Assembly (NCBI GenBank): GCA_016868035.1
Contig: VGID01000014.1
Location: forward strand, 1-64,000
DNA from: Betaproteobacteria bacterium
Lineage (GTDB): Bacteria > Pseudomonadota > Gammaproteobacteria > Burkholderiales > SG8-41
Length of the DNA stretch: 64,000 nucleotides
Direction of reading: 5' to 3'
Shown: positions 20,008-39,881 of the stretch, piece by piece
Layout of the letters: each line of letters opens with the position of its first letter
Position numbering within the stretch: position 1 is the first letter of the stretch
Program-made: the position numbers and the translations under genes
The notes under the pieces: generated by a model
The model's input: the letters and a program-made list of their open reading frames with translations, nothing else
Told to the model about the DNA's origin: nothing
Databases searched by the model: none

Positions 20008-20192
20008 CGCCCTCCCTTCGGCGTGACGGCGTGCGCGCAACGCGACGTGCCGTCCGGAAACGATAGTCGCGCGGCAAGCGCGCTGTCAATCGCCGTGAGT
20101 TCCGGCAGCCCGCTCGTGCTCCCGCGATGCTCTCTGGTAAACTGCGGCTTCCTCCGCTCCACCATCAACCTACCATACGACCGGGGTGTGAT

Positions 20193-21125
20193 ATGCCTGC
20201 CCGCAGCAAGAAACCCGCAGCGAAAATCGTTCCGAAGCGACCCGCGACGACCGCGACCCGCAACTACGGTGACATCCTCTACGAGGTGAAGGACCAGGTT
20301 GCGTGGGTCACGATCAACCGCCCGCGGGTGCTCAACGCGTTCCGCGAGCAGACCCTCGACGAAATGATCCACGCGCTGAAGTCCACGCGCGAGGATCCCT
20401 CCATCGCGTGCGCGGTCGTCACCGGCGCGGGCGACAAAGCGTTTTCGGCGGGAGGTGACTTCTACGCCATGAAGCGCCTCAATTTCACCAACGCCTATAT
20501 GTGGAACGACCGCATGCTGGGGCTTGCCATGACCATCCGCGGCCTGCCGATCCCGGTGATCGCGATGGTGAACGGCTGGTGCATGGGCGGCGGCCACGAG
20601 CTTGCCCTGTGGTGCGACCTCGTGATCGCGTCCGAGAACGCGGTGCTCGGCCAGACCGGCGCGCGCGTGGGTGCGTGCCCGACGGTGGGCGCGACCCAGT
20701 ACATCCCGCGCATCATCGGCGAGCGCCTCGCGCGCGAGATGATTTTCTGCGCGCGGCGTTTCGGCGCAAAAGAGGCGGCGGAAGTCGGCCTCATCAACAA
20801 ATGCGTGGCGCAAAAGGACCTGCTCAAGGAGACCCTCAAGTGGTGCGAGACCATCAAGGGCCACAGCGCGCTCACGCTCCGCATGACCAAGCGCTCGCTC
20901 AATTTCGAGTCCGACAACCTCTACAGCTCATGGCAGCATGGCATGGAGCTGCTCGCGCACGTGTGGGGATCGGACGAGGCGAAGGAGGGCATGAACGCGT
21001 TCCTCTCCGGGCGGGCGCCCAACTTCCAGAAATTCCGCATGCGCGACAAGCGCGAGCTCGACGAGTACCTGCGCGGGCTGGAGAAGAACCTGAACGAGCC
21101 CCCCGCCATGCGAAAAAAGGCGTGA
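20193..21125 (+). CDS. Enoyl-CoA hydratase/isomerase family protein, MenB/BadI-like
   Basis: The protein has 310 residues, with a basic N-terminal tail of about 25 residues before the crotonase core. The oxyanion-hole segments are AFSAGGDFYAM and GWCMGGGHELAL. The region GQTGARVGACPTVGATQYIPRIIGERLAREMIF resembles dihydroxynaphthoyl-CoA synthase (MenB) and the ring-opening hydrolase BadI more than ordinary enoyl-CoA hydratases. A ring-cleaving or C-C bond role on an acyl-CoA is therefore plausible. ATG 20193 is the start; the frame is open upstream but without similarity. It is divergent from the Bug gene. Confidence 0.82.
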   Translation: MPARSKKPAAKIVPKRPATTATRNYGDILYEVKDQVAWVTINRPRVLNAFREQTLDEMIHALKSTREDPSIACAVVTGAGDKAFSAGGDFYAMKRLNFTNAYMWNDRMLGLAMTIRGLPIPVIAMVNGWCMGGGHELALWCDLVIASENAVLGQTGARVGACPTVGATQYIPRIIGERLAREMIFCARRFGAKEAAEVGLINKCVAQKDLLKETLKWCETIKGHSALTLRMTKRSLNFESDNLYSSWQHGMELLAHVWGSDEAKEGMNAFLSGRAPNFQKFRMRDKRELDEYLRGLEKNLNEPPAMRKKA

Positions 21126-21310
21126 GTCGTAAGTCGTGACTCGTGAGTAGTGGTTCGTGAATACCTTTGTCTTTGTTCCTCTTGGCGCCTTGGCGGTTCC
21201 AAACCGCCGTGAATCGTGAATCGTTATTCGACGTTTTGTTCTTTCTTTGTGTCCTTCGTGTCCTTTGTGGTTAAAGATTTTGGTTTCCTCGGCGTCTCGG
21301 CGGTGAGAGC
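21126..21310. repeat. Repeat-word spacer with heptamer array
   Basis: Five 7-mers, GTCGTAA GTCGTGA CTCGTGA GTAGTGG TTCGTGA (21126-21160), start at the stop codon of the crotonase gene. They are followed by degenerate words such as CTTGGCGCCTTGGCGG, GTGAATCGTGAATCG and TGTCCTTCGTGTCCTTTGTGG, up to the next gene. Confidence 0.65.
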
Positions 21311-21315
21311 TGGTA

Positions 21316-22521
21316 ATGGATCCTGACGACAATGGCGGCGCGTTAAAAGGGCTGCGCGTGCTCGATTTGACGCGCATACTCGCGGGGCCGTTCTGCACCC
21401 AGATGCTGGGAGACATGGGCGCCGACGTGGTCAAGATCGAGCCCCCCGGTACCGGAGACGACACCCGCACGTGGGGACCGCCTTTCGTCGGCAAGGAGTC
21501 GGCGTATTTCCTGGGCGTGAATCGCAACAAGCGTTCGCTGACCCTCAACATGGCGGTCAAGCCCGGCCAGGAGATCCTCGCCGCGCTCATCGGGAAGAGC
21601 GACGTGCTGGTGGAGAACTACAAGCTGGGCACGCTCGAGAAGTGGGGCTTTACCAACGTCTGGCTCGAGCAACACGCGCCGCGTCTCATTCGCTGCTCGA
21701 TCACCGGCTACGGTTCGAGCGGGCCCAACGCGCGGCTGCCGGGCTACGACTTCATCCTGCAGGCCGAATCGGGGCTCATGAGCATCTGCGGGGAGGCGGA
21801 CGGCACGCCGACCAAGTACGGGGTCGCGATCGTGGACGTGGTGACCGGGCTCTATGCGTGCAATACGATACTCGCGGCGCTCGCGGCGCGCAGCCGCACC
21901 GGGCGCGGGCAGCACGTGGAGGTGTCTCTCCACGAGTCGGGCATCGCGATGCTGATCAACGTCGCTTCCAACTATCTCGTCTCGGGACGGGACGCGCGCC
22001 GCTACGGCAACGGGCACCCGAGCATCGTGCCCTACACGACGTATCCGACGGCGGACGGCTTGATGGCCGTCGCCGTCGGCAACGACGCGCAGTTCGCGCG
22101 GTTCGCGGAAACGGTGGGCCACGCGGAGTGGGCGCGCGACGAGCGCTTCGCGACCAACCCCGCGCGTGTGACGAACCGCGAGACGATCGACGCGCTGATC
22201 GCGTCGGCGCTCGAGGCTGACCGGACTGCGAGCTGGATCGGCAAGCTGCGCGCGGCCGGAGTGCCGTGCGGCCCGATCAACTCGGTCGAACAGGCGCTCA
22301 ACGATCCGCACACGCTCGCGCGCGACATGGTCCGCACGGTGCAGCACCCCGCGGTGGGGGAGCTGAAGATGGTCGGCATTCCGTTCCGGCTGAATGGCAC
22401 GCCGGCGACGATACGCCGTGCCCCGCCGCTGCTCGGAGAGCATACCGACGAGGTGCTGCGCGGCGAGCTGGGCTACTCGGCCGAGCGCATCGCGCAGCTG
22501 CGCGCAGAGAGGGTTGTTTAA
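21316..22521 (+). CDS. CaiB/BaiF (family III) CoA transferase with Glu at the nucleophile position
   Basis: The protein has 401 residues. The family start LRVLDLTRILAGPFCTQMLGDMGADVVKIEPP and the C-terminal LGEHTDEVL are intact. At the place of the catalytic Asp (VDVxxxD) it reads VEVSLHESG, so Glu207 stands where Asp is usual; this Asp forms the acyl-anhydride and glutamyl/aspartyl-CoA intermediates in formyl-CoA transferase. Family members with a changed residue here may be slower transferases, racemase/lyase-like or inactive. It sits between a BadI-like crotonase and methylmalonyl-CoA epimerase. The upstream gap is repeat-filled, with no clear ribosome-binding site beyond GAGAG. Confidence 0.82.
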   Translation: MDPDDNGGALKGLRVLDLTRILAGPFCTQMLGDMGADVVKIEPPGTGDDTRTWGPPFVGKESAYFLGVNRNKRSLTLNMAVKPGQEILAALIGKSDVLVENYKLGTLEKWGFTNVWLEQHAPRLIRCSITGYGSSGPNARLPGYDFILQAESGLMSICGEADGTPTKYGVAIVDVVTGLYACNTILAALAARSRTGRGQHVEVSLHESGIAMLINVASNYLVSGRDARRYGNGHPSIVPYTTYPTADGLMAVAVGNDAQFARFAETVGHAEWARDERFATNPARVTNRETIDALIASALEADRTASWIGKLRAAGVPCGPINSVEQALNDPHTLARDMVRTVQHPAVGELKMVGIPFRLNGTPATIRRAPPLLGEHTDEVLRGELGYSAERIAQLRAERVV

Positions 22522-22523
22522 TA

Positions 22524-22597
22524 GACAGGATTAACAAGATTTACAAGATGATGCCTAGGGTTTTTGATCTGATCCTGTTAATCATGTAAATCCTGTC
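22524..22597. repeat. 74-bp inverted repeat of 9-mers (GACAGGATTAACA type)
   Basis: The left arm GACAGGATTAACAAGATTTACA and the right arm, whose reverse complement reads GACAGGATTTACATGATTA, are built from 9-base words (ACAGGATTA, ACAAGATTT). The arms enclose about 20 bases. The whole folds as a hairpin directly after the CoA-transferase stop. It could act as a terminator-like structure before the epimerase gene. Confidence 0.75.
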
Positions 22598-22639
22598 CAT
22601 TTGCTTTTGACGTTAGCGGTTTTTTCGGCGAGGGTAGCG

Positions 22640-23053
22640 ATGATTACTGGGTTGAGTCACGTGTCCATTGCCGTGCCCGATCTCGAGGCGGCGGCGAAAC
22701 GGTTGCGGGAGGTGTACGGCCTCGCCGTCGGGGAAGCCCGCGTGAACGAGCAGCAGGGCGTGCGGCTCGCGTACGTGGAGCTTCCGAACGCGTGCATCGA
22801 GCTGATCGCTCCCGCGCGCCCGGACTCGCCGATCTCCAAGTTCCTGGAGAGGAACCCCGCGGGCGGCATACATCATTTCTGCCTCAATGTGGACGATGTT
22901 CCGGCCACGAGCGCGGGAATTGCGCAGAAGGGCGTACGCATGCTCGGCGAGGGCAAGGACAGCCGCAACGTGCACGGCGAGCGCATCGCGTTCATACATC
23001 CGAAGGACTTCCTGGGCGCGCTGGTCGAGCTGGAGGAGCACAAGAACCGGTGA
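22640..23053 (+). CDS. mce: Methylmalonyl-CoA epimerase (VOC superfamily)
   Basis: The protein has 137 residues, with two beta-alpha-beta-beta-beta modules of the vicinal-oxygen-chelate fold. Metal ligands can be placed at His7 (GLSHVSIAV), His78 or His79 (GGIHHFCLNVDD) and Glu130 (LVELEEHK). It interconverts (2S)- and (2R)-methylmalonyl-CoA, linking propionyl-CoA carboxylation to the mutase, a copy of which lies at 289-2348. ATG 22640 has GAGGG upstream; the frame upstream of it runs into the repeat element. Epimerase-like VOC proteins acting on ethylmalonyl-CoA look the same, so substrate range is open. Confidence 0.85.
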   Translation: MITGLSHVSIAVPDLEAAAKRLREVYGLAVGEARVNEQQGVRLAYVELPNACIELIAPARPDSPISKFLERNPAGGIHHFCLNVDDVPATSAGIAQKGVRMLGEGKDSRNVHGERIAFIHPKDFLGALVELEEHKNR

Positions 23054-23079
23054 TGAGTGAGTGATGAGTGAGAACGACC

Positions 23080-24150
23080 ATGGCTGACGTTGCGGCACCG
23101 CTGCGCGTCTCCGCGCAGAAACTCGAGGCCTTCATCGCGCGCGCGCTCCAGGCCGTGGAGATCTCGGAGCGCGAGGCGAAGTGCATCGCCGAGCTCATGG
23201 TGCGCGCTGATGTGCAGGGCTCCGAGGGCCACGGCGTGTTCCGGCTCCCCCAGTACATCCGCCGCATCCAGGGCGGCGCGGTCAACGTGAAGCCCGGGAT
23301 CCGCGTCGCGCGTGAGGCCGCGGCCATGGCGCTGGTGGACGGCGACAACGGCATGGGGCATCTCGTGATGCGCTACGCGACCGAGCGCGCGATCGAAAAG
23401 GCGAAGACCGCGGGCGTCGCCTGGGTGGGAGCGAAGTGGAGCAACCATGCCGGCCCCGCATCCCTTTATGCAACGATGCCGCTCGAGCACGACATGATCG
23501 GGCTCTACCTCGCGGTGGGCAACGCCAATCACCTGCCGCCGTGGGGCGGGCTCGACATGCTGCTCTCGACGAACCCGATCGCAGTGGCGATCCCCGCGGG
23601 CGAGGAGCCGGCGATTGTGCTCGACATGGCCACGACGGTGGCCGCCTACGGCAAGGTCAAGACCAAGGCGCAGCGCGGCGAGACGATGCCGGAGGGCTGG
23701 ATGATGGACCGCGAGGGCCGCCCGCTCACCGATCCGAGACGCGCCAACGAGGGATTCCTGCTGCCGATCGGCGGCTACAAGGGCTACGGGCTCGCGCTCG
23801 TCATCGGGCTGCTCGCGGGAACGCTGAACGGCGCCGCGATGGGCAAGGACGTGGTGGACTTCAACGCCGACGACGTGACGGCCACCAACACCGGCCACGT
23901 CATCGTCGCGATCAACGTGGAAGCGTTCCAGCCGGTAGCGGAGTTCAAGAAGAACGTGGACGCGCTGATCCGCGACATCCGGGCCTCCAGGCGCCTGCCG
24001 GGCGTGGACCGCGTGCGCCTGCCGGGCGAAGGCAGCCACGCCGCGCGCGCCGACCGGTTGAAGAACGGCGTGCCCCTGCCCGCGCCGCTCGCCGCGGCCC
24101 TGAAGGAACTTGCCGCGGAGCTGAAGATCGCCCCGCTGAAATTGCGGTGA
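23080..24150 (+). CDS. Ldh/malate dehydrogenase-2 family NAD(P)-dependent oxidoreductase
   Basis: The protein has 356 residues and belongs to the non-Rossmann Ldh_2 family (sulfolactate, ureidoglycolate, malate and delta-piperideine-2-carboxylate dehydrogenases). The typical start motif HGVFRLPQYIRRIQGG, the conserved His in the NHAGPAS segment, and the nucleotide-contact region DMATTVAAYGKVK plus LPIGGYKGYGLAL are visible. It would oxidise a 2-hydroxy acid or reduce the 2-oxo acid. ATG 23080 is used; GTG 23068 is possible. A GTGATGAGTGA-type repeat fills the short gap before it. The stop overlaps the GTG of the next gene. Confidence 0.85.
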   Translation: MADVAAPLRVSAQKLEAFIARALQAVEISEREAKCIAELMVRADVQGSEGHGVFRLPQYIRRIQGGAVNVKPGIRVAREAAAMALVDGDNGMGHLVMRYATERAIEKAKTAGVAWVGAKWSNHAGPASLYATMPLEHDMIGLYLAVGNANHLPPWGGLDMLLSTNPIAVAIPAGEEPAIVLDMATTVAAYGKVKTKAQRGETMPEGWMMDREGRPLTDPRRANEGFLLPIGGYKGYGLALVIGLLAGTLNGAAMGKDVVDFNADDVTATNTGHVIVAINVEAFQPVAEFKKNVDALIRDIRASRRLPGVDRVRLPGEGSHAARADRLKNGVPLPAPLAAALKELAAELKIAPLKLR

Positions 24151-25739: not shown

Positions 25740-26020
25740 CGCGCGAAGGACCGCCATAGCTGTACCAGGACTGTGGGATTCGCAAAAGTTGCGTTCTTCC
25801 CTGCCAAGTCTGCATCGAGGACCCCGGTGGCCAGCAAACGCGTTCGAGCGCCACCACGTCGCACGCGGTGACGTCGTTGACTTCCGCATGAATACGGAAA
25901 GCTTACCACGCCAGAGCAAGAAAATGCCGGCCAGAATTTCTGGGAAGCGCAACAATGCATTGCCCGGGGCGGGCCGGCCTGTTATCGTTTAACGGTATTC
26001 GAGAACAAAAGGGCACGACG

Positions 26021-26626
26021 ATGAAGCTGGTTGCAGGCATGGCGCTCGCGGGCGTGCTGCTCCTCGCATCGGGCGCGCACGCCGCCGGCGCGGCGACGGC
26101 ACCCGACGCTCTGGTGCGCAGCACCGTGGACGAGGTGCTGGCCGTCATCAAGAAGACCAAGGATCCGAAGGCGCTCGTGGAGCTTGCCGAGAAGAAAGTA
26201 GTGACCCACTTCGACTTCAGGACCATGACGCGGCTTGCGATGGGGCGCTCGTGGGCGCAGGCGAACTCCGCGCAGCAGCAGGCGCTCGAGCGCGCCTTCC
26301 GCACGCTGCTCGTGCGCACCTACACCACGGCGCTCTCCCAGACCACCGCCGAGTCGAAGGTGGACGTGCGGCCGGTCACGATGAAGCCGGGCGACACCGA
26401 GGTGGTGGTGACGACATTCGCGTCCGAGGCCGGGCGCAAGCCCATCCAGATCGACTACCGCATGGCGCGGACCGACGGCAGCTGGAAGGTGTACGACGTG
26501 GTCGTCGAGAACCTGAGCCTCGTCATCAACTACCGGGGCTCGTTCCAGTCGGAGATTTCGCGCTCCGGGATCGACGGGCTGATCCGGACCATCGAGGAGA
26601 AGAACAAGAAGCTCGCGGAAGGCTGA
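26021..26626 (+). CDS. MlaC/Ttg2D-like periplasmic phospholipid-binding protein
   Basis: The protein has 201 residues, with a signal peptide of about 23 residues ending SGAHAAGA. The mature part shows the Tol_Tol_Ttg2 family pattern: VVTHFDFRTMTRLAMGRSWAQA, FRTLLVRTYTTAL, and the C-terminal VYDVVVENLSLVINYRGSFQSEI. The family shuttles phospholipids between membranes with the Mla ABC transporter, whose other genes are not nearby; a stand-alone hopanoid- or lipid-binding role is also possible. ATG 26021 is chosen for the signal peptide. Confidence 0.85.
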   Translation: MKLVAGMALAGVLLLASGAHAAGAATAPDALVRSTVDEVLAVIKKTKDPKALVELAEKKVVTHFDFRTMTRLAMGRSWAQANSAQQQALERAFRTLLVRTYTTALSQTTAESKVDVRPVTMKPGDTEVVVTTFASEAGRKPIQIDYRMARTDGSWKVYDVVVENLSLVINYRGSFQSEISRSGIDGLIRTIEEKNKKLAEG

Positions 26627-26740
26627 GCGCAAGCCCGCGCGCTGGCGTCATCCTCGCGTGTCGGTGTCACGTTCGCTCCGCGTTTTTTCTGGAATCACGC
26701 TGCTCCGGCCATGGTGCCGGAGCCCACGCAGTGTTTGGTC

Positions 26741-28009
26741 ATGGTCCGTCTAGCTGATCTCCCCGATTGGGAACGCGAGCACCTGCTGTCCAAGCTGAAG
26801 GATTTGGGCGGGTTCGACGGACGCCCGTGGGTTGCGGGCCCGCCGCTCGCGAAGCGGCGCGTGGCGATCATCACGACCTCCGGGCTGCACCGCAGGCAAG
26901 ACCGGCCGTTCGCGCCGGGTGCCGCGGGCAGCGAATACCGCGTCATTCCGGGCAACGTTGCGGCCGACGAGCTGGTGATGAGCCATCTTTCGGTCAACTT
27001 CGACCGCAGCGGCTTCCAGCAGGACATCAATGTCGTATTCCCGCTCGAGCGGCTGAAGGAGCTCGCGGCGGAGCGCGTGATCGGCGCGGTGGCCGACTAC
27101 CATTATTCATTCATGGGCGCGGCGCCGATCCGCAGTCTCGAGCCCAGGGCGCGCAGCATCGCCGGATTGCTCAAGAAGGACCGCGTGGACGCGGTGCTGC
27201 TGACCCCGGTCTGACCCAACTGCACGTGCGCCGTGGGCGCGCTGGGCCACTACCTCGAGGAAGAAGGGGTCGCGACCACGCAGATTTCGCTGGTGCGCGA
27301 GCACACCGCGGCGATGAACCCTCCGCGGGCGCTGTGGGTCCCTTTCATCCTCGGCCGTCCGTTCGGAGTGCCGGGCGACGCCGCGTTCCAGCGCCGCGTC
27401 TTGCTCGCGGTGCTGCGCCTGCTCGAGGCGCCCTCCGGGCCGGTGCTCGCCGATTACGGCGAGGACACCCCGCAGCCGGCACTGGACGAAACGGAGGGGT
27501 TCGCCTGTCCGGTGAATTTCGGCGGCGCGGCCGCCGATGACGAGCCGGCGGCGTTGCAGCGGGAAATCGGCGAACTCGTTCCGTGGCACGACATGGCGTG
27601 CGGACGGCACGGCCGCACCACGGCGGCGCTCTGCGGCCTCACGCCAGCGGAGGCCGGCCGTTTCATCACCGATTTCATCGCGCGCCCGGACGCGCCGAGC
27701 TACCGCGCCGACCTCTCGCGCGGCCTCGCGTTGCGTCTTGCGTGCGCGGACCTGAAGGCTTATTACCTGGAATCGGTCGGCGTGCAGCCCGGCCGGCTCG
27801 CGGCGCAGCAGGCACACGAGTGGTTCTGGCGCGAAACGATCGCCGGAGCCGTTCTACTGAAGCTGCGTGACGCATGCATGGGCAGCGACGACGAGTCCGT
27901 GAGGATATTCGGTAGCAGTCATCTCGTGCCGCGCGCGATCCTGCATGCCCGGGCCGCGTCGAAGGGTCCGCACGATGCCGCCGTGGACGGCATCCCGCGT
28001 CGTGCCTGA
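26741..28009 (+). CDS. GrdB/PrdB-family reductase-like selenoprotein, in-frame UGA read as Sec158
   Basis: One reading frame runs from 26741 to 28009, interrupted only by TGA at 27212-27214. Read through, it gives 422 residues with Sec158 in the redox motif UPNCTC (Cys161, Cys163). The family (glycine/sarcosine/betaine and D-proline reductase selenoprotein B) carries Sec or Cys at this position after an LLxPV strand, and similarity continues on both sides of the UGA (VNFDRSGFQQDINVVFPLERL before, GALGHYLEEEGVATTQISLVREHT after). A hairpin suited to be a bacterial SECIS follows the UGA. Start 26741 (MVRLADLPDWE) is chosen by family resemblance; ATG 26711 is an alternative, and neither has a good ribosome-binding site. 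The physiological substrate in aerobic proteobacteria is not known to me. An automatic caller would split it into two fragments. Confidence 0.78.
27212..27246 (+). promoter_or_regulatory. UGA codon with SECIS-like hairpin
   Basis: Directly after the UGA, CCCA (27215-27218) can pair with UGGG (27243-27246). After a seven-base bulge a 7-bp stem (27226-27232 with 27236-27242) closes a GUG loop. The loop starts 18 bases after the UGA and begins with G, which fits the bacterial SECIS recognised by SelB. The pairing is by eye, not by folding energy. Confidence 0.5.
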
Positions 28010-28038
28010 CATCCCCGGCGGTGTAACCGCGCAGCCGA

Positions 28039-28672
28039 TCAGGTCCCGGCGTCCGCCGCAACGGCCAAGAAAGCTCCCAGCGGCAGTTCGCCCGGCAGCG
28101 CGTTCTCTATCCACTGCGCGAGCGCGCCGCCTCCCGGAAGGAACAGCGCGCTCATCAGCGCAACGTTGGTGAGCGGCAGGCCCGCGAGCAGACGCCGTGC
28201 CTCGCCCGCCGAGTGCCAGCGCGCACCGCGGTAGCCGCCGGTGCCGCCATGGTGGCCCTTCTGGAGGTAGAGGATGCTGCGCCGGTTGAGCAGTCCGAGA
28301 GCAACGCGCCGGCGCGTGATGCGGGCCATTTCCCGCAACGCCGTCCGCTGTGCCTCGATGAAGCAGAAAGAGGTGACGGCGACGGCGCAGTCGAAGCTGC
28401 GATCGGCGAACGGCAGCCGCTCCGCCCGGCCCGCCACATAACTTTCGGCACCAGCCGCGCGCGCGCCCGTACCGCACCCATCCGACGTTGGGATCCATGC
28501 CCGTGACGGCGACATGAGGAAGCTGCGCGAACCTGCGGGTGAAGTGACCGGTCCCGCATCCCACGTCGAGGACGCTCTCGCCCGGCCGGAGATCGAGCAT
28601 CTCGCACAACAGCCGGAATTCCGTCTCCCCGATCAACTGCCCGCGCGGGGTGCGATACCAGGCGTCGTATTC
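28039..28672 (-). pseudogene. Class I SAM-dependent methyltransferase, frameshifted
   Basis: The 5' part on the minus strand encodes YDAWYRTPRGQLIGETEF and the SAM-binding motif VLDVGCGTGHFTRRF. The continuation (SYVAGRAERLPFADRSFDCAVAVTSFCFIE and the C-terminal domain to the stop at 28039) is in another frame. The switch occurs within a GCGCGCGCGC run near 28457-28468, so a one-base slip in the genome or in the assembly explains it. No ATG/GTG start is visible for the 5' part, whose frame runs back into the end of the preceding flavoprotein gene; TTG 28636 is the first permitted start but would remove conserved residues. If the slip is a sequencing error, the gene is intact and is the last of the sulfur-related operon. 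Confidence 0.72.
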
Positions 28673-29822
28673 AGAAGCGGCTGAAGAGCCAGTATTTCTC
28701 GTAGAGCACCTTGGCGCCGTGCCAGAGGAAACTCGGGGCGCGCAGGCGCACCTGCGGTGCCGGCTCCGCGTAGAAGTTGCCGCTGCCCATTCCGGCTCTG
28801 CCCGAGCCGACCTCGATGAAGCACGCGCCCTCGCCGTCGAAGCGCTTCGAGGCGCCGGCGCCGGTCCACGCGCGCGCGATGTTGCGCGCGACGGTCTCGG
28901 CCTGTCCGTGCGCGAATACTCCCGCCTTGGGCAGCGGCCGGCCGATCTTGAGCGGGATCACCGTGACATCGCCGATGGCGAAGACATTCTTGTGGGTGGT
29001 TTCGAGCGTGTAGCGGTCCACCGGGATCCAGCCCGCCTCATTGGTGAGGCCGGCTTCCCGTACCGCCTGCGGCGCACGGTGCGGCGCCACGTAGAGGAGC
29101 AGGTCATAGCCCACCTTTGCGCCGTTGGCGAACTGCAGTGTGCGCGATTCCGGGTCCGCGAGCTGCACCTGGTGCTCGGGGTGGTACGAGATTCCACGCG
29201 CCTCGATCATGGCGCGCAGCGCGGCCGAAACCTCCGGTCCGGCTGTCATCATCGGGCCGGGCTCGGCGGCGTAGAAGTCGATTTGCGCGCGCTCCCGGAT
29301 GCCGCGGCGGCGCAAGAGGTCCTCCACCAGAAGCGCAGCCTCGTACGGACCCGCCGGGCACTTGTACATCGGTGTCGCCGTGAGCACGACGATGCGGCCT
29401 CCGGCGAACGCGTCGAGCGCCTCCCGCGCGCGCTGCGCGCCCTCGAGCGTGTAGAAGCAGTGCCCGGAGGCGGCCAGCCCGGGGATCCCCTCCATCGCGT
29501 ACTCGGCGCCGAGCGCAATGACGAGCGCGTCTCCGCGCAGCATTTGCCCGTTCACCGCGACTTCCAGCGCCCGGGGCCGGATCGCCGTCACCTCGCCGCG
29601 CACGAGCTCGATGCCGCGGCGGGAGAGCACGGCGCACGGGCGCGAGATCTGCTCCGCGGTGCGCGTGCCGACCATCAGCCACAGCAAGGACGGAGGAAAC
29701 ACGTACCGCTCGGCGCGCTCTACCGCGACCACGCGATGGCCTGCTGGCAGAAGCCGGCGCAGTGTCTCGGCGGCGACCACGCCCCCGAGACCCGCCCCCA
29801 ATATGAGTGCCGTGCGATTCAT
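28671..29822 (-). CDS. Sulfide:quinone reductase-like FAD oxidoreductase
   Basis: The protein has 383 residues and belongs to the SQR/flavocytochrome c sulfide dehydrogenase group. The FAD dinucleotide motif is GAGLGG at residues 9-14, and the second FAD motif is NVFAIGDVT near 279-287. Cysteines at 122 (GHCFYT), 155 (MYKCPAGPYE) and 334 (GACFIEVGSG) fall where SQRs carry their redox-active Cys residues. It would oxidise sulfide or a related thiol, passing electrons to the quinone pool at the membrane. It follows a DsrE-family gene by ten bases. The type (SQR or other) is not certain without a tree. Confidence 0.8.
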   Translation of the reverse strand: MNRTALILGAGLGGVVAAETLRRLLPAGHRVVAVERAERYVFPPSLLWLMVGTRTAEQISRPCAVLSRRGIELVRGEVTAIRPRALEVAVNGQMLRGDALVIALGAEYAMEGIPGLAASGHCFYTLEGAQRAREALDAFAGGRIVVLTATPMYKCPAGPYEAALLVEDLLRRRGIRERAQIDFYAAEPGPMMTAGPEVSAALRAMIEARGISYHPEHQVQLADPESRTLQFANGAKVGYDLLLYVAPHRAPQAVREAGLTNEAGWIPVDRYTLETTHKNVFAIGDVTVIPLKIGRPLPKAGVFAHGQAETVARNIARAWTGAGASKRFDGEGACFIEVGSGRAGMGSGNFYAEPAPQVRLRAPSFLWHGAKVLYEKYWLFSRF

Positions 29823-32796: not shown

Positions 32797-34239
32797 ATGC
32801 GGTTGTATTACCCGCGCTCGTTTCCCAGGCTGCTGGCGGTGGGGTTCACGCTCATCGCGGCGCCGCTCATCTTTGCGCTCATCAGCACCGCAGTCTCGGT
32901 TGACCAGCTCGCCAGCCGCAGCCACGTCGCCGTGTACCAGGCGGTGCAGGCTACGCAAAGCGGCCGCCAGCTCGCCGAAGTGCTCACGGCGCTCGAGCGC
33001 ACGGCGCGCCAGATGGTGATCCTGGGCGACCGTTCCCTGGTCGAGACCTACGAGCTCAACCGGCAGCAGTTCGGGCGCACGGTGGATGCGTTCGCGCGCC
33101 TGCCGCTCGACGAGGAGCAGAAGGGCGCGCTCGAGGACATCGTGAGCGGGGAGGAGGAGATCTTCAGGGCGCTCACGGAGGCGCGTCCGAAAGGCGGGCA
33201 GCTCAAGAGCGCGATGGAGCGCTTCGTGGTGCTGGGAGCGCGCGCCCAGACGATCGTGGCGCGCTCGAACGCGCTGATCGACCGCGAGGTGGAGGCGATG
33301 CGCGCCACTGCCGATCAGGCGCAGCGCATCACGTTCTGGCAGCTGCTTGCGCTCGTTCCGGTCGTGGCCTTCCTGGTGATCGGGTTCACCATCCTGATCG
33401 CGCGCCCGATCCGGCAGATCGATTTGGCGATCCGCAGGCTGGGCGGGGGCGAATTCAACGCGCCGGTGGCGGTGAGCGGGCCGCAGGACCTGGAGCACCT
33501 TGGCGAGCGCCTCGAATGGATGCGCCGGAGGCTCGTCGATCTCGAGCAACAGAAGAACCGCTTCCTGCGCCACGTCTCGCACGAGTTGAAGACCCCGCTC
33601 ACCGCGCTGCGCGAGGGCGCGGAGCTACTCTCCGACGAAGTGGTGGGCAACCTCACTCCGCAGCAGCGCGAGATCGCGGAAATCCTGCGCCACAACAGTA
33701 TAGAATTACAGAAGCTGATCGAGGATCTGCTCTCCTACGGCGCGAGCCAGTTCCACAAGGTCAACCTGGACCTCAGGCCGGTGAGTGTGCGGCAGGTGAT
33801 CAACCGCGTGGCCGATGACCAGCGTCTTGCGCTGAGGGCGCGCGCGCTCAAGCTCGAGATCGCGGGACAGGACGTGTCGGTGCGGGCCGATTTCGAGAAG
33901 CTGAGGGTGGTGCTCGACAATCTCATGTCCAATGCCGTGAAATTCTCTCCGCGGGGCGCAACGATTCGGGTAGAGACGGCCCGCGACGGCACCGAGCTCG
34001 CGCTCGACGTTCGCGACGAGGGTCCGGGGATCGCGCGCGAGGATCGCGAGCGCATATTCGACCCGTTCTACCAGGGCGGTCGCACGGGAGAAGGTCCGCT
34101 GCGCGGCACCGGCGTCGGCCTCTCGGTAGTCAAGGAATACGTGGATGCGCATCGCGGCCGGGTGGAGGTGCTGGATTCGGAGCACGGCGCGCACCTGCGT
34201 GTGCGGCTTCCGCTCGCGCCCGAGGGGGCGGAGGCATGA
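32797..34239 (+). CDS. glrK: Sensor histidine kinase GlrK/QseE-like
   Basis: The protein has 480 residues. Two transmembrane segments (residues 13-35 and about 185-208) flank a helical periplasmic sensor region of about 150 residues. They are followed by a HAMP segment, the H-box RHVSHELKTPL with His262, and the ATPase boxes DNLMSNAVKFSP, DEGPGIAREDRERIFDPFYQG and GTGVGLSVVKEYV. The gene order kinase, small lipoprotein, sigma-54 activator is that of E. coli glrK-qseG-glrR, which supports the assignment. It would phosphorylate GlrR in response to an envelope signal. The stop overlaps the next start. Confidence 0.88.
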   Translation: MRLYYPRSFPRLLAVGFTLIAAPLIFALISTAVSVDQLASRSHVAVYQAVQATQSGRQLAEVLTALERTARQMVILGDRSLVETYELNRQQFGRTVDAFARLPLDEEQKGALEDIVSGEEEIFRALTEARPKGGQLKSAMERFVVLGARAQTIVARSNALIDREVEAMRATADQAQRITFWQLLALVPVVAFLVIGFTILIARPIRQIDLAIRRLGGGEFNAPVAVSGPQDLEHLGERLEWMRRRLVDLEQQKNRFLRHVSHELKTPLTALREGAELLSDEVVGNLTPQQREIAEILRHNSIELQKLIEDLLSYGASQFHKVNLDLRPVSVRQVINRVADDQRLALRARALKLEIAGQDVSVRADFEKLRVVLDNLMSNAVKFSPRGATIRVETARDGTELALDVRDEGPGIAREDRERIFDPFYQGGRTGEGPLRGTGVGLSVVKEYVDAHRGRVEVLDSEHGAHLRVRLPLAPEGAEA

Positions 34240-34760: not shown

Positions 34761-36112
34761 GTACCGAGCGCGGCAAAATCCTGGTGGTCGATGACGACCC
34801 GGATCTCCTGCGGCTGATGGAGATCCGGCTCGCCGCGGCCGGCTACGCGGTCACCACCGCGGAGAGCGGCGAGCAGGCGCTCGCCCGCCTGAGCGTCATT
34901 CGGCCGGAGCTCGTGGTAACCGACCTCCGGATGGGCGGGATGGACGGGATGGCGCTGTTCGAGGCGATCCGCGCGGAGCATCCGACGCTTCCCGTGATCA
35001 TGCTCACCGCGCACGGCACCATCCCCGACGCGGTGGCCGCGGTGAAGCGCGGGGTCTTCGGCTACCTCACCAAGCCGTTCGACGCCAAGGCCCTGCTGGC
35101 CGAAGTGGAGCGCGCGCTGGCCGCGAGCGGCGGGGCGCGGGAGGCCGCGCGGGGCGCGGAGAGCGGCGCCTGGCGCAAGGACATCATCACGCGCAACGCG
35201 GCGATGGAGAACGTGCTGGCGAAAGCGCGGCTGGTGGCCGACAGCGATGCGAGCGTGTTCATCTACGGGGATTCGGGAACCGGCAAGGAGCTGGTGGCGC
35301 GGGCGATCCACAACGCGAGCCCGCGCCGGGAACGCCCGTTCGTCGCGATCAACTGCGGGGCGATCCCCGAGCAGCTGCTCGAATCCGAGCTGTTCGGGCA
35401 CGTGCGGGGGGCCTTTACCGGGGCGATCCGCGACCACAAGGGCCTGTTCCAGACCGCCGACAAGGGGACGCTCTTTCTCGACGAGATCGGGGACATGCCC
35501 GTCGCGCTCCAGGTGAAGCTGCTGCGCGTGCTCCAGGAGAAAAGGGTCCGTGCGGTGGGTTCCACCGAAACGCACGACATGGACGTGCGCGTGATATCGG
35601 CCACCCACCGCGACATCCAGGCGCAGATGGCGGCGGGCAATTTCCGCGAGGATCTGTTCTATCGCCTCAACGTGGTGGCGCTTGCGCTGCCGCCGCTCGC
35701 CGAGCGGCGTGAAGACATACCGTTGCTCGCCAATCATTTCCTCGCCGCACTCGCGACGAAGTACAAGAAGACGATCAACAGCTTCGCGCCCGAGGCGATG
35801 GAGCTCCTCGTCGCGGCGGCATGGCCCGGCAACGTGCGCCAGCTCTATAACGTGGTGGAGCAGTCGGTGGCGCTCGCGACCACGCCGCTCATCCCCGTGT
35901 CGCTCACGCAGCAGGCGATCCAGAACCAACAGACCGAGTTCGCCTCGTTCGAGCAGGCGCGGCGCAGGTTCGAGCGGGAGTACCTGACGCAACTCCTCAA
36001 GATCACCGAGGGCAACGTCACGCAGGCGGCGCGCCTCGCCCAGCGCAACCGCACCGAGTTCTACAAGCTGCTCGCGCGCCACGAGCTCGATCCCAAGCTC
36101 TTCAAATCCTGA
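34757..36112 (+). CDS. glrR: Sigma-54-dependent response regulator GlrR
   Basis: The protein has 451 residues. The receiver domain has the phospho-acceptor Asp56 (VVTDLRMGG) and Lys in YLTKPFDAK. The AAA+ domain has Walker A GDSGTGKE, the sigma-54 contact loop GAFTGA and the Walker B FLDEIGDM. The C-terminus (LLKITEGNVTQAARLAQRNRTEFYKLL) is a Fis-type helix-turn-helix. It activates RpoN promoters; rpoN itself is at 61127-62563. Two predicted binding sites and a sigma-54 promoter follow directly downstream. A terminator begins inside its stop codon. Confidence 0.92.
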   Translation: MSTERGKILVVDDDPDLLRLMEIRLAAAGYAVTTAESGEQALARLSVIRPELVVTDLRMGGMDGMALFEAIRAEHPTLPVIMLTAHGTIPDAVAAVKRGVFGYLTKPFDAKALLAEVERALAASGGAREAARGAESGAWRKDIITRNAAMENVLAKARLVADSDASVFIYGDSGTGKELVARAIHNASPRRERPFVAINCGAIPEQLLESELFGHVRGAFTGAIRDHKGLFQTADKGTLFLDEIGDMPVALQVKLLRVLQEKRVRAVGSTETHDMDVRVISATHRDIQAQMAAGNFREDLFYRLNVVALALPPLAERREDIPLLANHFLAALATKYKKTINSFAPEAMELLVAAAWPGNVRQLYNVVEQSVALATTPLIPVSLTQQAIQNQQTEFASFEQARRRFEREYLTQLLKITEGNVTQAARLAQRNRTEFYKLLARHELDPKLFKS

Positions 36113-37772: not shown

Positions 37773-39881
37773 TTAAACGCGTGAAAGGCGGACGACCTCG
37801 GTGATCCCGCGCAGGCTCCGCAGGATCCGCGCGAGGTGCAACCGGTCGGAGACCTGCAGCGTGAAGTACATATTGGTGTAATCGCTGCCGTCCTCGGGGT
37901 CCACGGCGACGTTCTGGATGTTGGAGCCGGCCCCCGCGATTTCCGCGGCGACCTTGGCGAGCACGCCACGCTGGTTGGCCACAACCAGCTTGATGCTGAC
38001 ATCGAAGAGCTTGCGGGTATCCGGATCCCACGCCACGTCCAGAATGCGGTCGGGATCGTGGCGGGCGCGGATGATCGCCGGGCAGTCGTGGGTGTGGATC
38101 ACCATCCCCTGCCCCTTGCTGATGATGCCGATGATGGGATCGCCCGGTATTGGCTTGCAGCATTGGGCGAACTGCACCGCCAGACCCTCCGAGCCGCGGA
38201 TGATCACGGAGCCGGGCATCGGCACTTCGTTCGAGCCCGGCTCGCCGAGCGGAAGCAGGCGCCGAGCAACGACCGCCGCAAGGCGCTTGCCGAGCCCGAT
38301 GTCCGCGAGGATTTCCTCGCGTGATTTGGCGCCGGCGTCGCGCAGGAACCGGTCCCACTGCGCCCCCTTGATCTCGCCGAGCGCGGAGCCCAGCGCCCCC
38401 AGCGCCTGGTTGAGCAGGCGCTCGCCCAGCTGGGAGGACTCCTGGTAGTGCATCGTCTTGAGGAAGTGGCGGATGCGCGAGCGCGACTTGGCGGTTACGA
38501 CGAAATTCAGCCACAGCGGATTGGGCTTGGCGTGTGCGGCCGTGATGATCTCCACCCGGTCGCCGTTCTTGAGCTCGGTCCTCAACGGCATCAGGTCCTG
38601 GTTGATCTTCACTGCCACGCACCGGTTGCCGATGTCGGTGTGCACGGCGTAGGCGAAATCCACCGCCGTCGCCCCGCGCGGCAGCGCCATGATCTTGCCC
38701 TTGGGCGTGAAGACGTAGACTTCGTCCGGAAAGAGGTCCACCTTCAGGTGCTCGAGGAATTCGACCGAATCGCCCGACTGCGACTGCATCTCGAGCAGGC
38801 TCTGCAGCCACTGGTGGGTCTTCTTCTGCAGATCCGAGAGCGACGTGTCCGAGCTCTTGTAGAGCCAGTGCGAGGCGACGCCCGCCTCGGCGATCTTGTG
38901 CATCTCGATGGCGCGGATCTGGATCTCCATCGGGCTGCCGAACGGCCCGAACAGCGTCGTGTGCAGCGACTGGTAGCCGTTCGCCTTCGGGATCGCCACG
39001 TAGTCCTTGAACTTGCCCGGGATGGGCTTGAACAGGCTGTGCAGCGCTCCCAGCGCGAGGTAGCACCCGGCCACGTCTTTCACGAGGATGCGGAAGCCGA
39101 ACACGTCGAGCACCTGCGCGAACGAAAGATGCTTCTCGCGCATCTTGCGGTAGATCGAGTACAGGTGCTTCTCGCGCCCGTGCACCTGCGCCTCCACGCC
39201 GCTCGACTTGAGCCTGCGCTTGATCGAGTCCATCACCTTGCTCACCACCTCGCGGCGGTTGCCGCGCGCGGCCTTGACCGCCTTGGACAGCACGCGGTAG
39301 CGGTCGGGATATAGGTGCTGGAAGGCGAGATCCTCCAGCTCTTGGTAGATGCGGTTGAGCCCCAGGCGGTTGGCGATGGGCGCATAAATATCGAGCGTCT
39401 CGCGCGCGATCCGGCGCTTTTTATCGGACTCCACCGCATCGAGCGTGCGCATGTTATGGAGCCGGTCGGCGAGCTTGATGAGGATGACACGGACATCGCG
39501 CGCCATCGCGAGCAGCATCTTGCGGAAATTCTCGGCCTGCGCGACTTCGTGCGTCTCGAACTCGATGCGATCGAGCTTGGAGACGCCGTCCACCAGCTCC
39601 GCGACCGGCTTGCCGAAATTGCGGGAGATCTCCGTTTTGGTGACGGCGGTGTCCTCCATCACGTCATGGAGGAGCGCGGCGGTGAGCGCCTGCGTGTCGA
39701 GATGCCACTCGGCGAGGATGCTGGCCACCGCCAGCGGGTGCGAGATGTAGGGCTCGCCCGTCTTGCGGAACTGCCCCTCGTGCGCGGCCTCGCTGAAGTG
39801 GTAAGCCGACTCGAGCTGAGTGATGTCTTCCGGCTTGAGGTAGCCGGACCACTCCTTGAACAGTATTGCGGCCTGCGTCAT
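37773..39881 (-). CDS. spoT: Bifunctional (p)ppGpp synthetase/hydrolase SpoT (Rel)
   Basis: The protein has 702 residues. The HD hydrolase domain is intact (SHPLAVASILAEWHLD, LLHDVMEDT). The synthetase domain (residues about 230-350) includes IEIQIRAIEMHKIAEAGVASHWLYK-type sequence. A TGS domain (VFTPKGKIMALPRGATAVDFAYAVHTDIG) and a C-terminal ACT domain follow. It sets the stringent-response alarmone level. It sits in the usual order gmk-rpoZ-spoT. The spacer upstream is a heptamer hairpin, and the spacer downstream is another. Confidence 0.95.
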   Translation of the reverse strand: MTQAAILFKEWSGYLKPEDITQLESAYHFSEAAHEGQFRKTGEPYISHPLAVASILAEWHLDTQALTAALLHDVMEDTAVTKTEISRNFGKPVAELVDGVSKLDRIEFETHEVAQAENFRKMLLAMARDVRVILIKLADRLHNMRTLDAVESDKKRRIARETLDIYAPIANRLGLNRIYQELEDLAFQHLYPDRYRVLSKAVKAARGNRREVVSKVMDSIKRRLKSSGVEAQVHGREKHLYSIYRKMREKHLSFAQVLDVFGFRILVKDVAGCYLALGALHSLFKPIPGKFKDYVAIPKANGYQSLHTTLFGPFGSPMEIQIRAIEMHKIAEAGVASHWLYKSSDTSLSDLQKKTHQWLQSLLEMQSQSGDSVEFLEHLKVDLFPDEVYVFTPKGKIMALPRGATAVDFAYAVHTDIGNRCVAVKINQDLMPLRTELKNGDRVEIITAAHAKPNPLWLNFVVTAKSRSRIRHFLKTMHYQESSQLGERLLNQALGALGSALGEIKGAQWDRFLRDAGAKSREEILADIGLGKRLAAVVARRLLPLGEPGSNEVPMPGSVIIRGSEGLAVQFAQCCKPIPGDPIIGIISKGQGMVIHTHDCPAIIRARHDPDRILDVAWDPDTRKLFDVSIKLVVANQRGVLAKVAAEIAGAGSNIQNVAVDPEDGSDYTNMYFTLQVSDRLHLARILRSLRGITEVVRLSRV

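Follow-up and report, generated by a model that had tools for sequence, protein, structure and literature searches.

D-proline reduction is known from amino-acid-fermenting anaerobes. In glycine reductase, GrdA, which carries CxxU, acts together with GrdB, which carries UxxCxxC (PMC13188914). For a GrdB/GrdE-like pair, cleavage of the fluoroacetate C-F bond has been proposed, which implies that relatives of GrdB can adopt new substrates (PMC10838667). Five proline reductase selenoproteins are given in a survey from 2006, and the organisms shown there are anaerobic or facultative (PMC1794560). A review from 2026 places D-proline reductase under TIGR04483 and gives accounts of further selenoprotein operons (PMC13188914), and other neighbouring selenoprotein pairs are named in this review and in the GOS paper (PMC13188914, PMC2398784). 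The portions of the literature available to the search contain no account of the PrdB-like subfamily examined here, nor of a PrdB-like/AhpD-like pair.

Selenoproteins called PrdB are already known from ocean metagenomes. The Sargasso Sea set contains PrdB with 42 Sec sequences (PMC1088965), and the GOS set contains 235 Sec and 110 Cys sequences (PMC2398784). These proteins, abundant in ocean samples, are similar to the protein described below in their UxxC motif (PMC1088965, PMC2398784) and in their assignment to Pfam GRDB (PMC2398784). The 42 and 235 sequences may belong to its subfamily, a likeness drawn by description. The present protein is a variant with an added domain, and its genome lacks a PrdA-type gene. 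If the marine 'PrdB' represents the same subfamily, the name is misleading: no PrdA-type partner accompanies the protein in this genome, and the protein has an extra domain. The first-pass annotation had considered a GrdB/PrdB-family protein outside anaerobes to be surprising; given the abundance of 'PrdB' in the two ocean sets, the surprise is smaller than stated (PMC1088965, PMC2398784).

The reading frame and its in-frame TGA

The window, which is the whole stretch of 64,000 nucleotides that was analysed, contains a frame on the plus strand whose sole interruption is the TGA at 27212-27214. The gene and this codon are as follows.

26741..28009, plus strand: PrdB/GrdB-like gene, predicted to encode a selenoprotein; ATG at 26741, stop at 28007-28009, 422 residues, Sec at residue 158
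27212..27214, plus strand: in-frame UGA, predicted Sec codon 158; TGA in 50 of 50 aligned sequences, and in the sister family Cys in 12 of 13 and TGA in 1 of 13

Mechanical ORF calling yields two ORFs, 26711-27214 (167 amino acids) and 27233-28009 (258 amino acids), as the first-pass annotation had expected. An annotation problem can be seen here, in that ordinary ORF calling splits a selenoprotein gene. The open run after the TGA comprises 264 codons. The GC content of the window is 65-72%, long open frames are common there, and 97 of 2000 stop-to-stop gaps of the window reach at least 264 codons; the length of the open frame was accordingly set aside as weak evidence. Because long open frames are common in this GC-rich window, the case was rested on the relatives of the gene. 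GC content by codon position is alike on both sides of the TGA (0.71/0.45/0.85 before and 0.74/0.53/0.84 after).

A scan of GTDB genomes gave 37 loci with relatives, which show 44-70% identity in the best segment and are matched from residue 1 to about residue 400. TGA is found at the position of codon 158 in all 37. An alignment of 50 sequences was then composed of the window's own sequence, 36 of these 37 loci, 11 loci from the family of the window and 2 from its class, the 49 relatives being 41-72% identical to the window protein. Codon 158 is TGA in every aligned sequence, each of which has exactly one in-frame stop, and the earlier description of a single frame broken only at 27212 is thus confirmed. 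Among the matches listed from the 74 genomes of the window's family, all that span residue 158 have at least one TGA, and the three stop-free matches do not span this residue.

The surroundings of the codon are also conserved in part. The window protein reads U158-P-N-C161-T-C163 (U-P-N-C-T-C-A), which agrees with the U-x-x-C-x-C motif proposed earlier. In the alignment, Cys161, three positions after the Sec, is invariant (50 of 50), while position 163 holds R in 30 sequences, C in 17, G in 2 and S in 1. Sec158 and Cys161 thus stand as conserved positions and the third Cys does not. Compared to the UxxCxxC motif of GrdB (PMC13188914), the subfamily has U-x-x-C-x-C or, mostly, U-x-x-C-x-R. A pattern P-x-C-T-x-A is kept in relatives between the UGA and position 27233.

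A search of 398 genomes of the phylum at E <= 1e-15 recovered 13 other genomes with a match, representing a sister family (L142-L154). Its proteins are about 300-320 amino acids long and 29-37% identical to the window protein over approximately residues 34-236. The two families are alike in having Cys or Sec at the site of Sec158, in keeping with the earlier remark on relatives. They differ in that the sister proteins are shorter, with the reported match stopping near residue 236, and carry the motif CPVCHQ or CPICHQ. Sec/Cys exchange between homologues is a classic mark of selenoproteins, and the sister family supplies a natural Sec/Cys pair.

Two readings in which the UGA is not decoded as Sec have to be weighed. 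The UGA could be a true stop, with a 157-residue protein followed by a second protein restarting at GTG 27233; both halves are indeed open and a start codon does lie at 27233, but the split would fall just before the Cys161-bearing helix of a single confident structural model, the pattern P-x-C-T-x-A is conserved among the intervening residues, and the sister-family proteins read through with Cys, so that this reading is highly improbable. The other reading, an ordinary gene in which the TGA arose by nonsense mutation or by faulty assembly, has nothing in its favour beyond the split of the ORF itself and is practically negligible in probability, since the same TGA occurs in 49 of 49 aligned relatives labelled as several phyla, which argues against a sequencing slip, and Sec machinery is present in the genome. 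Judged from sequence comparison, the gene at 26741-28009 almost certainly encodes a selenoprotein and is not a mutated gene.

Putative SECIS hairpin, Sec machinery and distribution

A hairpin begins at the UGA itself.

27212..27249, plus strand: putative bacterial SECIS hairpin with an apical GUG loop; covariation across relatives

Over 77 distinct sequences, an average of 11.38 of the 14 hairpin pairs is retained, compared to 11.00 (sd 0.063) after permutation of codons within each amino acid; 11.38 was reached in 0 of 500 permutations, kinship among the sequences being uncorrected. The signal is found in the upper stem, with 6.55 of 7 pairs against a control of 6.25 (sd 0.027; same sequences, kinship likewise uncorrected). 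The lower stem is barely above its control (4.83 against 4.75, sd 0.057), and 2 of its 7 pairs are seen in a minority of the 77 sequences, namely 3/36 in 26% and 6/33 in 45%. Nucleotides 16 and 30 are paired in 75 of 77 sequences, occurring as CG (34), TA (31), TG (8), GC (2), CA (1) and TC (1). In 56 of the 77, nucleotide 30 occupies the third position of an Ala codon, and it is a purine in 53 of these 56, compared to a fraction of 0.56 in the same genes.

Folding energy was tried as a further line of evidence and is not supportive. The energy of the window's hairpin is not exceptional, with 65 of 200 shuffles as good (z -0.35), and in a set of 69 genes the stability of the UGA region is ordinary for the gene it lies in (mean z -0.25, median rank 0.42). 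The clearest hairpin among those folded is that of L004 (z -3.70). The hairpin is probably a SECIS element; it is graded no higher because relatedness is uncorrected in the codon-permutation control.

The genome of the window (98.3% complete) contains selA, selB, tRNA-Sec and selD, all above their cut-offs. Three of them are grouped within 5 kb on contig C4: selA at 33967 (517.6 bits), selB at 35207 (458.2 bits) and tRNA-Sec at 38521 (77.8 bits, ARAGORN anticodon tca). The selD gene lies on C65 (403.7 bits), and its own reading frame contains one TGA. The first-pass annotation had named selA, selB, selC and selD as the genes to look for, and their absence as an argument against the selenoprotein; all were found. 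Its central claim, a hidden selenoprotein of GrdB/PrdB kinship, is upheld by the TGA in 50 of 50 sequences, by these Sec genes and by the Pfam match described below. Besides the gene studied here, five further candidate UGA genes were recognised in the genome, that is, selD and four AhpD-like matches with TGA at a CxxU site. One of the latter, at C1:189820-190464 (L137, L129), has its UGA at a GCHY-U site and is 70% identical to the copy adjacent to the PrdB-like gene of L102. The other three (C26:26648, C1:157312 and C17:60013) are remote, with 25-27% identity to the query. In the 64-kb window, the single Rfam match at gathering score is a tRNA (tRNA-Gly).

The presence of selB was also compared among genomes of the family. 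It was found in 48 of 52 genomes with a match to the gene and in 19 of 22 without; selB occurs in nearly all family genomes, and the comparison is uninformative. At E <= 1e-60, selB was not found in four gene-bearing genomes of the family (G019, G038, G059 and G060), including G060 (L064), which is listed as 99% complete and has the UGA-containing gene.

Within the window's family, matches occur in 52 of 74 genomes; two of these (G036 and G037) have a distant GrdB-type match only, and a few have fragments alone. A class-wide sample gave matches at E <= 1e-20 in only 2 of 368 other genomes. The rows of a tree of 65 of the 66 loci collected (L115 was left out) carry the labels Pseudomonadota, Thermodesulfobacteriota, Myxococcota and Chloroflexota, with one Gemmatimonadota MAG. 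Two alphaproteobacterial MAGs with marine-looking isolate names, L016 and L032, carry the subfamily. L001 is labelled Bordetella parapertussis, a label taken as wrong because this MAG groups with betaproteobacterial MAGs in the tree. The earlier description of the host as a probable aerobic betaproteobacterium agrees with the labels of its nearest named relatives and with four matches above cut-off in the genome to PF00115, whose genes are characteristic of oxygen respiration, one with TAG in frame. The PF00115 family also includes nitric oxide reductases.

Family membership, structural model and the pyruvoyl subunit

Two domains can be distinguished in the AlphaFold2 model of the protein, which is confident (mean pLDDT 90.8, pTM 0.90).

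26843..27478, plus strand: Rossmann-like alpha/beta domain, residues 35-246 of the model, boundary set by eye; PrdB match at 35-228
27515..27976, plus strand: all-helical C-terminal domain of the model, residues 259-412, past the region matched by PrdB/GrdB models

Pfam GRDB (PF07355) matches residues 36-155 to model positions 223-345 with 30.9 bits, above the gathering cut-off of 22. The best curated match is NCBIfam PrdB (TIGR04483), over residues 35-228 with E 1.2e-26, and its cut-off was failed (93.6 bits against 300). The GrdB group cut-offs were failed as well (TIGR01917, 30.4 against 602.2; TIGR01918, 38.6 against 65.45), and so were the remaining NCBIfam PrdB/GrdB cut-offs. PF07355 matches all 50 aligned sequences at E <= 0.1, and the same five PrdB/GrdB models match all 50 at E <= 0.001, the comparison with cut-offs applying in both cases to the window protein alone.

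Compared to PrdB, the protein is alike over its aligned residues and in a UxxC with Sec, the motif of PrdB (PMC13188914). It is unlike PrdB in its score, in its extra helical domain and in the lack of a PrdA-type gene in the genome. Compared to GrdB, GrdF and GrdH (PF07355, TIGR01917, TIGR01918, NF040794, NF040795), it shares the matched segment, with the Sec just after it; the first 220 or so model positions are left unmatched, and there is no GrdE-type gene. The name GrdB/PrdB given earlier thus holds for kinship but not for curated membership. By these profile comparisons, the protein is a relative of PrdB and GrdB that belongs to neither curated family, and its N-terminal Rossmann-like domain appears to be distantly related to PrdB and to the C-terminal part of GrdB.

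In the model, Sec158 directly precedes the helix 159-174, and Cys161 is located in its first turn, so that U158 and C161 would form a UxxC pair at the helix start. Neither Pfam nor sequence or fold comparison matched the helical C-terminal domain with confidence, which does not make its fold new. Searched by sequence against solved structures, the whole protein had no match at E <= 1 and the C-terminal domain one match at chance level (E 0.34), and Foldseek gave no match at E <= 0.001 for either the whole model or this domain. VIA-align matched approximately residues 34-246 to various Rossmann and binding-protein folds with Z up to 7.8, and gave a Z of 5.0 for the C-terminal domain, which is not decisive. 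Taken together, one 422-residue selenoprotein of a distinct PrdB/GrdB-like subfamily, carrying out redox chemistry through its UxxC site, is very likely.

The partner subunit bears on the function. PF09338, the family of both PrdA and GrdE, was not found in the window's genome (98.3% complete) and is present in just 4 of the 74 genomes of its family. Because this pyruvoyl-subunit family was not found, the protein is not regarded as part of a D-proline or glycine reductase in the known form. A working subunit of D-proline reductase or of glycine, sarcosine or betaine reductase would be suggested by PrdB as the best curated match and by the Pfam GRDB match; the failed NCBIfam cut-offs, the missing PF09338 and the different length and domain make-up all speak against it, and this reading is very improbable. 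Instead, a Sec-dependent reductase using U158-x-x-C161 is the likely nature of the protein.

The four family genomes with PF09338 (G036, G037, G050 and G057; L119-L126) have up to five such GrdE/PrdA-type genes each. They also have separate GrdB-type matches with TGA, 24-29% identical and often on the same contig, and these sets are probably true protein B complexes.

Gene neighbourhood and proposed chemistry

The neighbourhood upstream of the gene contains the following features.

25955..26626, plus strand: HpnM/MlaC-like neighbour with scores under both curated cut-offs; L089, the closest relative, has it as the next upstream gene as well
20127..24150, plus strand: enoyl-CoA hydratase-like, CaiB-type CoA-transferase, methylmalonyl-CoA epimerase-like and Ldh_2 genes; in some relatives the selenoprotein gene lies at other slots of such a cluster

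The HpnM/MlaC-like gene is separated from the selenoprotein gene by 114 bases. Molybdenum hydroxylase genes and a TctC receptor gene are also found upstream, and the epimerase gene scores 124 bits against a cut-off of 115.

Near the PrdB-like gene, 11 of the 66 loci carry an AhpD-like gene whose CxxU site includes a TGA, in 10 of them within 3 kb and in one (L114) at about 4.9 kb. An OsmC-like gene with TGA is nearby in 5 loci, and either type in 15. Neither was found near the window's copy, and 51 loci have no UGA gene of either type; 48 of the 66 loci include 3 kb on both sides, and 18 have less than 3 kb on one or both. By the authors' own grouping, the AhpD-like gene accompanies 9 of 34 loci on the family side (the window, L001-L005 and the fetched family loci) compared to 2 of 32 among the rest; the OsmC-like gene accompanies 5 of these 34, and either type 13. 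With four TGA-bearing AhpD-like matches in 3.9 Mb, the chance that a given gene has one no more than 3 kb away is below 1% by simple arithmetic. AhpD-linked genes appear in several places in the tree (L018/L020; L100, L102, L104, L106; L105/L118; L101; L114). At L018 and L101, some UGA-bearing neighbours are on the opposite strand. At L111:6140-6679, an OsmC-like gene (by eye) with an in-frame UGA (GLGA-U-LLTQ) directly follows the PrdB-like gene, and similar genes occur in L107, L114 (two), L116 and L117. The linkage in some relatives thus offers concrete partners for study.

The following mechanism can be proposed. SelB and tRNA-Sec would decode the UGA at codon 158, aided by the hairpin that starts there. 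The selenolate of Sec158 would attack a small electrophilic substrate or a disulfide, and Cys161 would resolve the intermediate, giving a selenylsulfide. The enzyme could then be recharged by a small AhpD-like protein that has CxxU or CxxC as its site, a step modelled on the CxxU protein GrdA working with the UxxCxxC protein GrdB. The role of the AhpD-like protein as the redox partner is possible but falls short of likely. The wider picture, a two-selenoprotein reductase system of respiring bacteria with a UxxC catalyst and a CxxU carrier (AhpD- or OsmC-like), resembling GrdB/GrdA but without a pyruvoyl subunit and acting on another substrate, is offered tentatively and is itself somewhat unlikely.

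Two other functions, each unlikely, may be considered beside this system. The protein could perform a reductive step of CoA-thioester catabolism together with the CaiB-type transferase, enoyl-CoA hydratase, epimerase and Ldh_2, and not with an AhpD-like protein. In the window and in three relatives, the gene is in or near a CaiB-containing cluster, in differing slots. In L095 it is flanked by CaiB, about 77 bases before it, and by the epimerase-like gene; in L004 it follows Ldh_2 at a distance of about 19 bases, and in L096 it comes after the CoA transferase. Sister-family genes also directly precede a CaiB-like gene in 4 of 7 loci examined (L155, L159, L160 and L161), the CaiB family being confirmed by Pfam for L155 alone. 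However, L155, L160 and L161 come from one genus and count as a single event, genomes of this kind abound in CaiB and TctC genes, and other relatives sit among housekeeping-type genes, e.g., RelA/SpoT-like or DXS-like (named by eye).

Alternatively, the protein could detoxify peroxides or electrophiles, as a selenol peroxidase-like partner of AhpD- or OsmC-like proteins. These two families are linked to peroxide reduction, and their members next to the gene carry UGA at the redox position. Against this doubtful suggestion, the reaction known from characterised relatives is the reductive cleavage of amino acids, not the reduction of peroxides (PMC13188914).

Several minor observations concern the surroundings of the gene. 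On the minus strand of the window, a SAM-dependent methyltransferase-like sequence (by eye) at 27854-28636 appears to cross between the frames 27854-28636 and 28039-28515 and may be frameshifted. Also on the minus strand, the gene at 28671-29822 is quinone reductase-like; its best NCBIfam match is the selenoprotein-subtype type III sulfide quinone reductase, at a score well short of its cut-off (210.9 against 525), and a search for read-through beyond its end gave no sign of it. In L092, L093 and L115, radical SAM genes that resemble ArsS of arsenosugar biosynthesis (by eye) are found some 2-6 kb away from the PrdB-like gene, and in L092 and L093 an ArsM-like methyltransferase stands alongside the ArsS-like gene. 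A second PrdB-like copy, whole or partial, adjoins the first in L013, L016, L024 and L025, and flavin reductase-like genes (by eye) adjoin the PrdB-like gene in L014 and L025.
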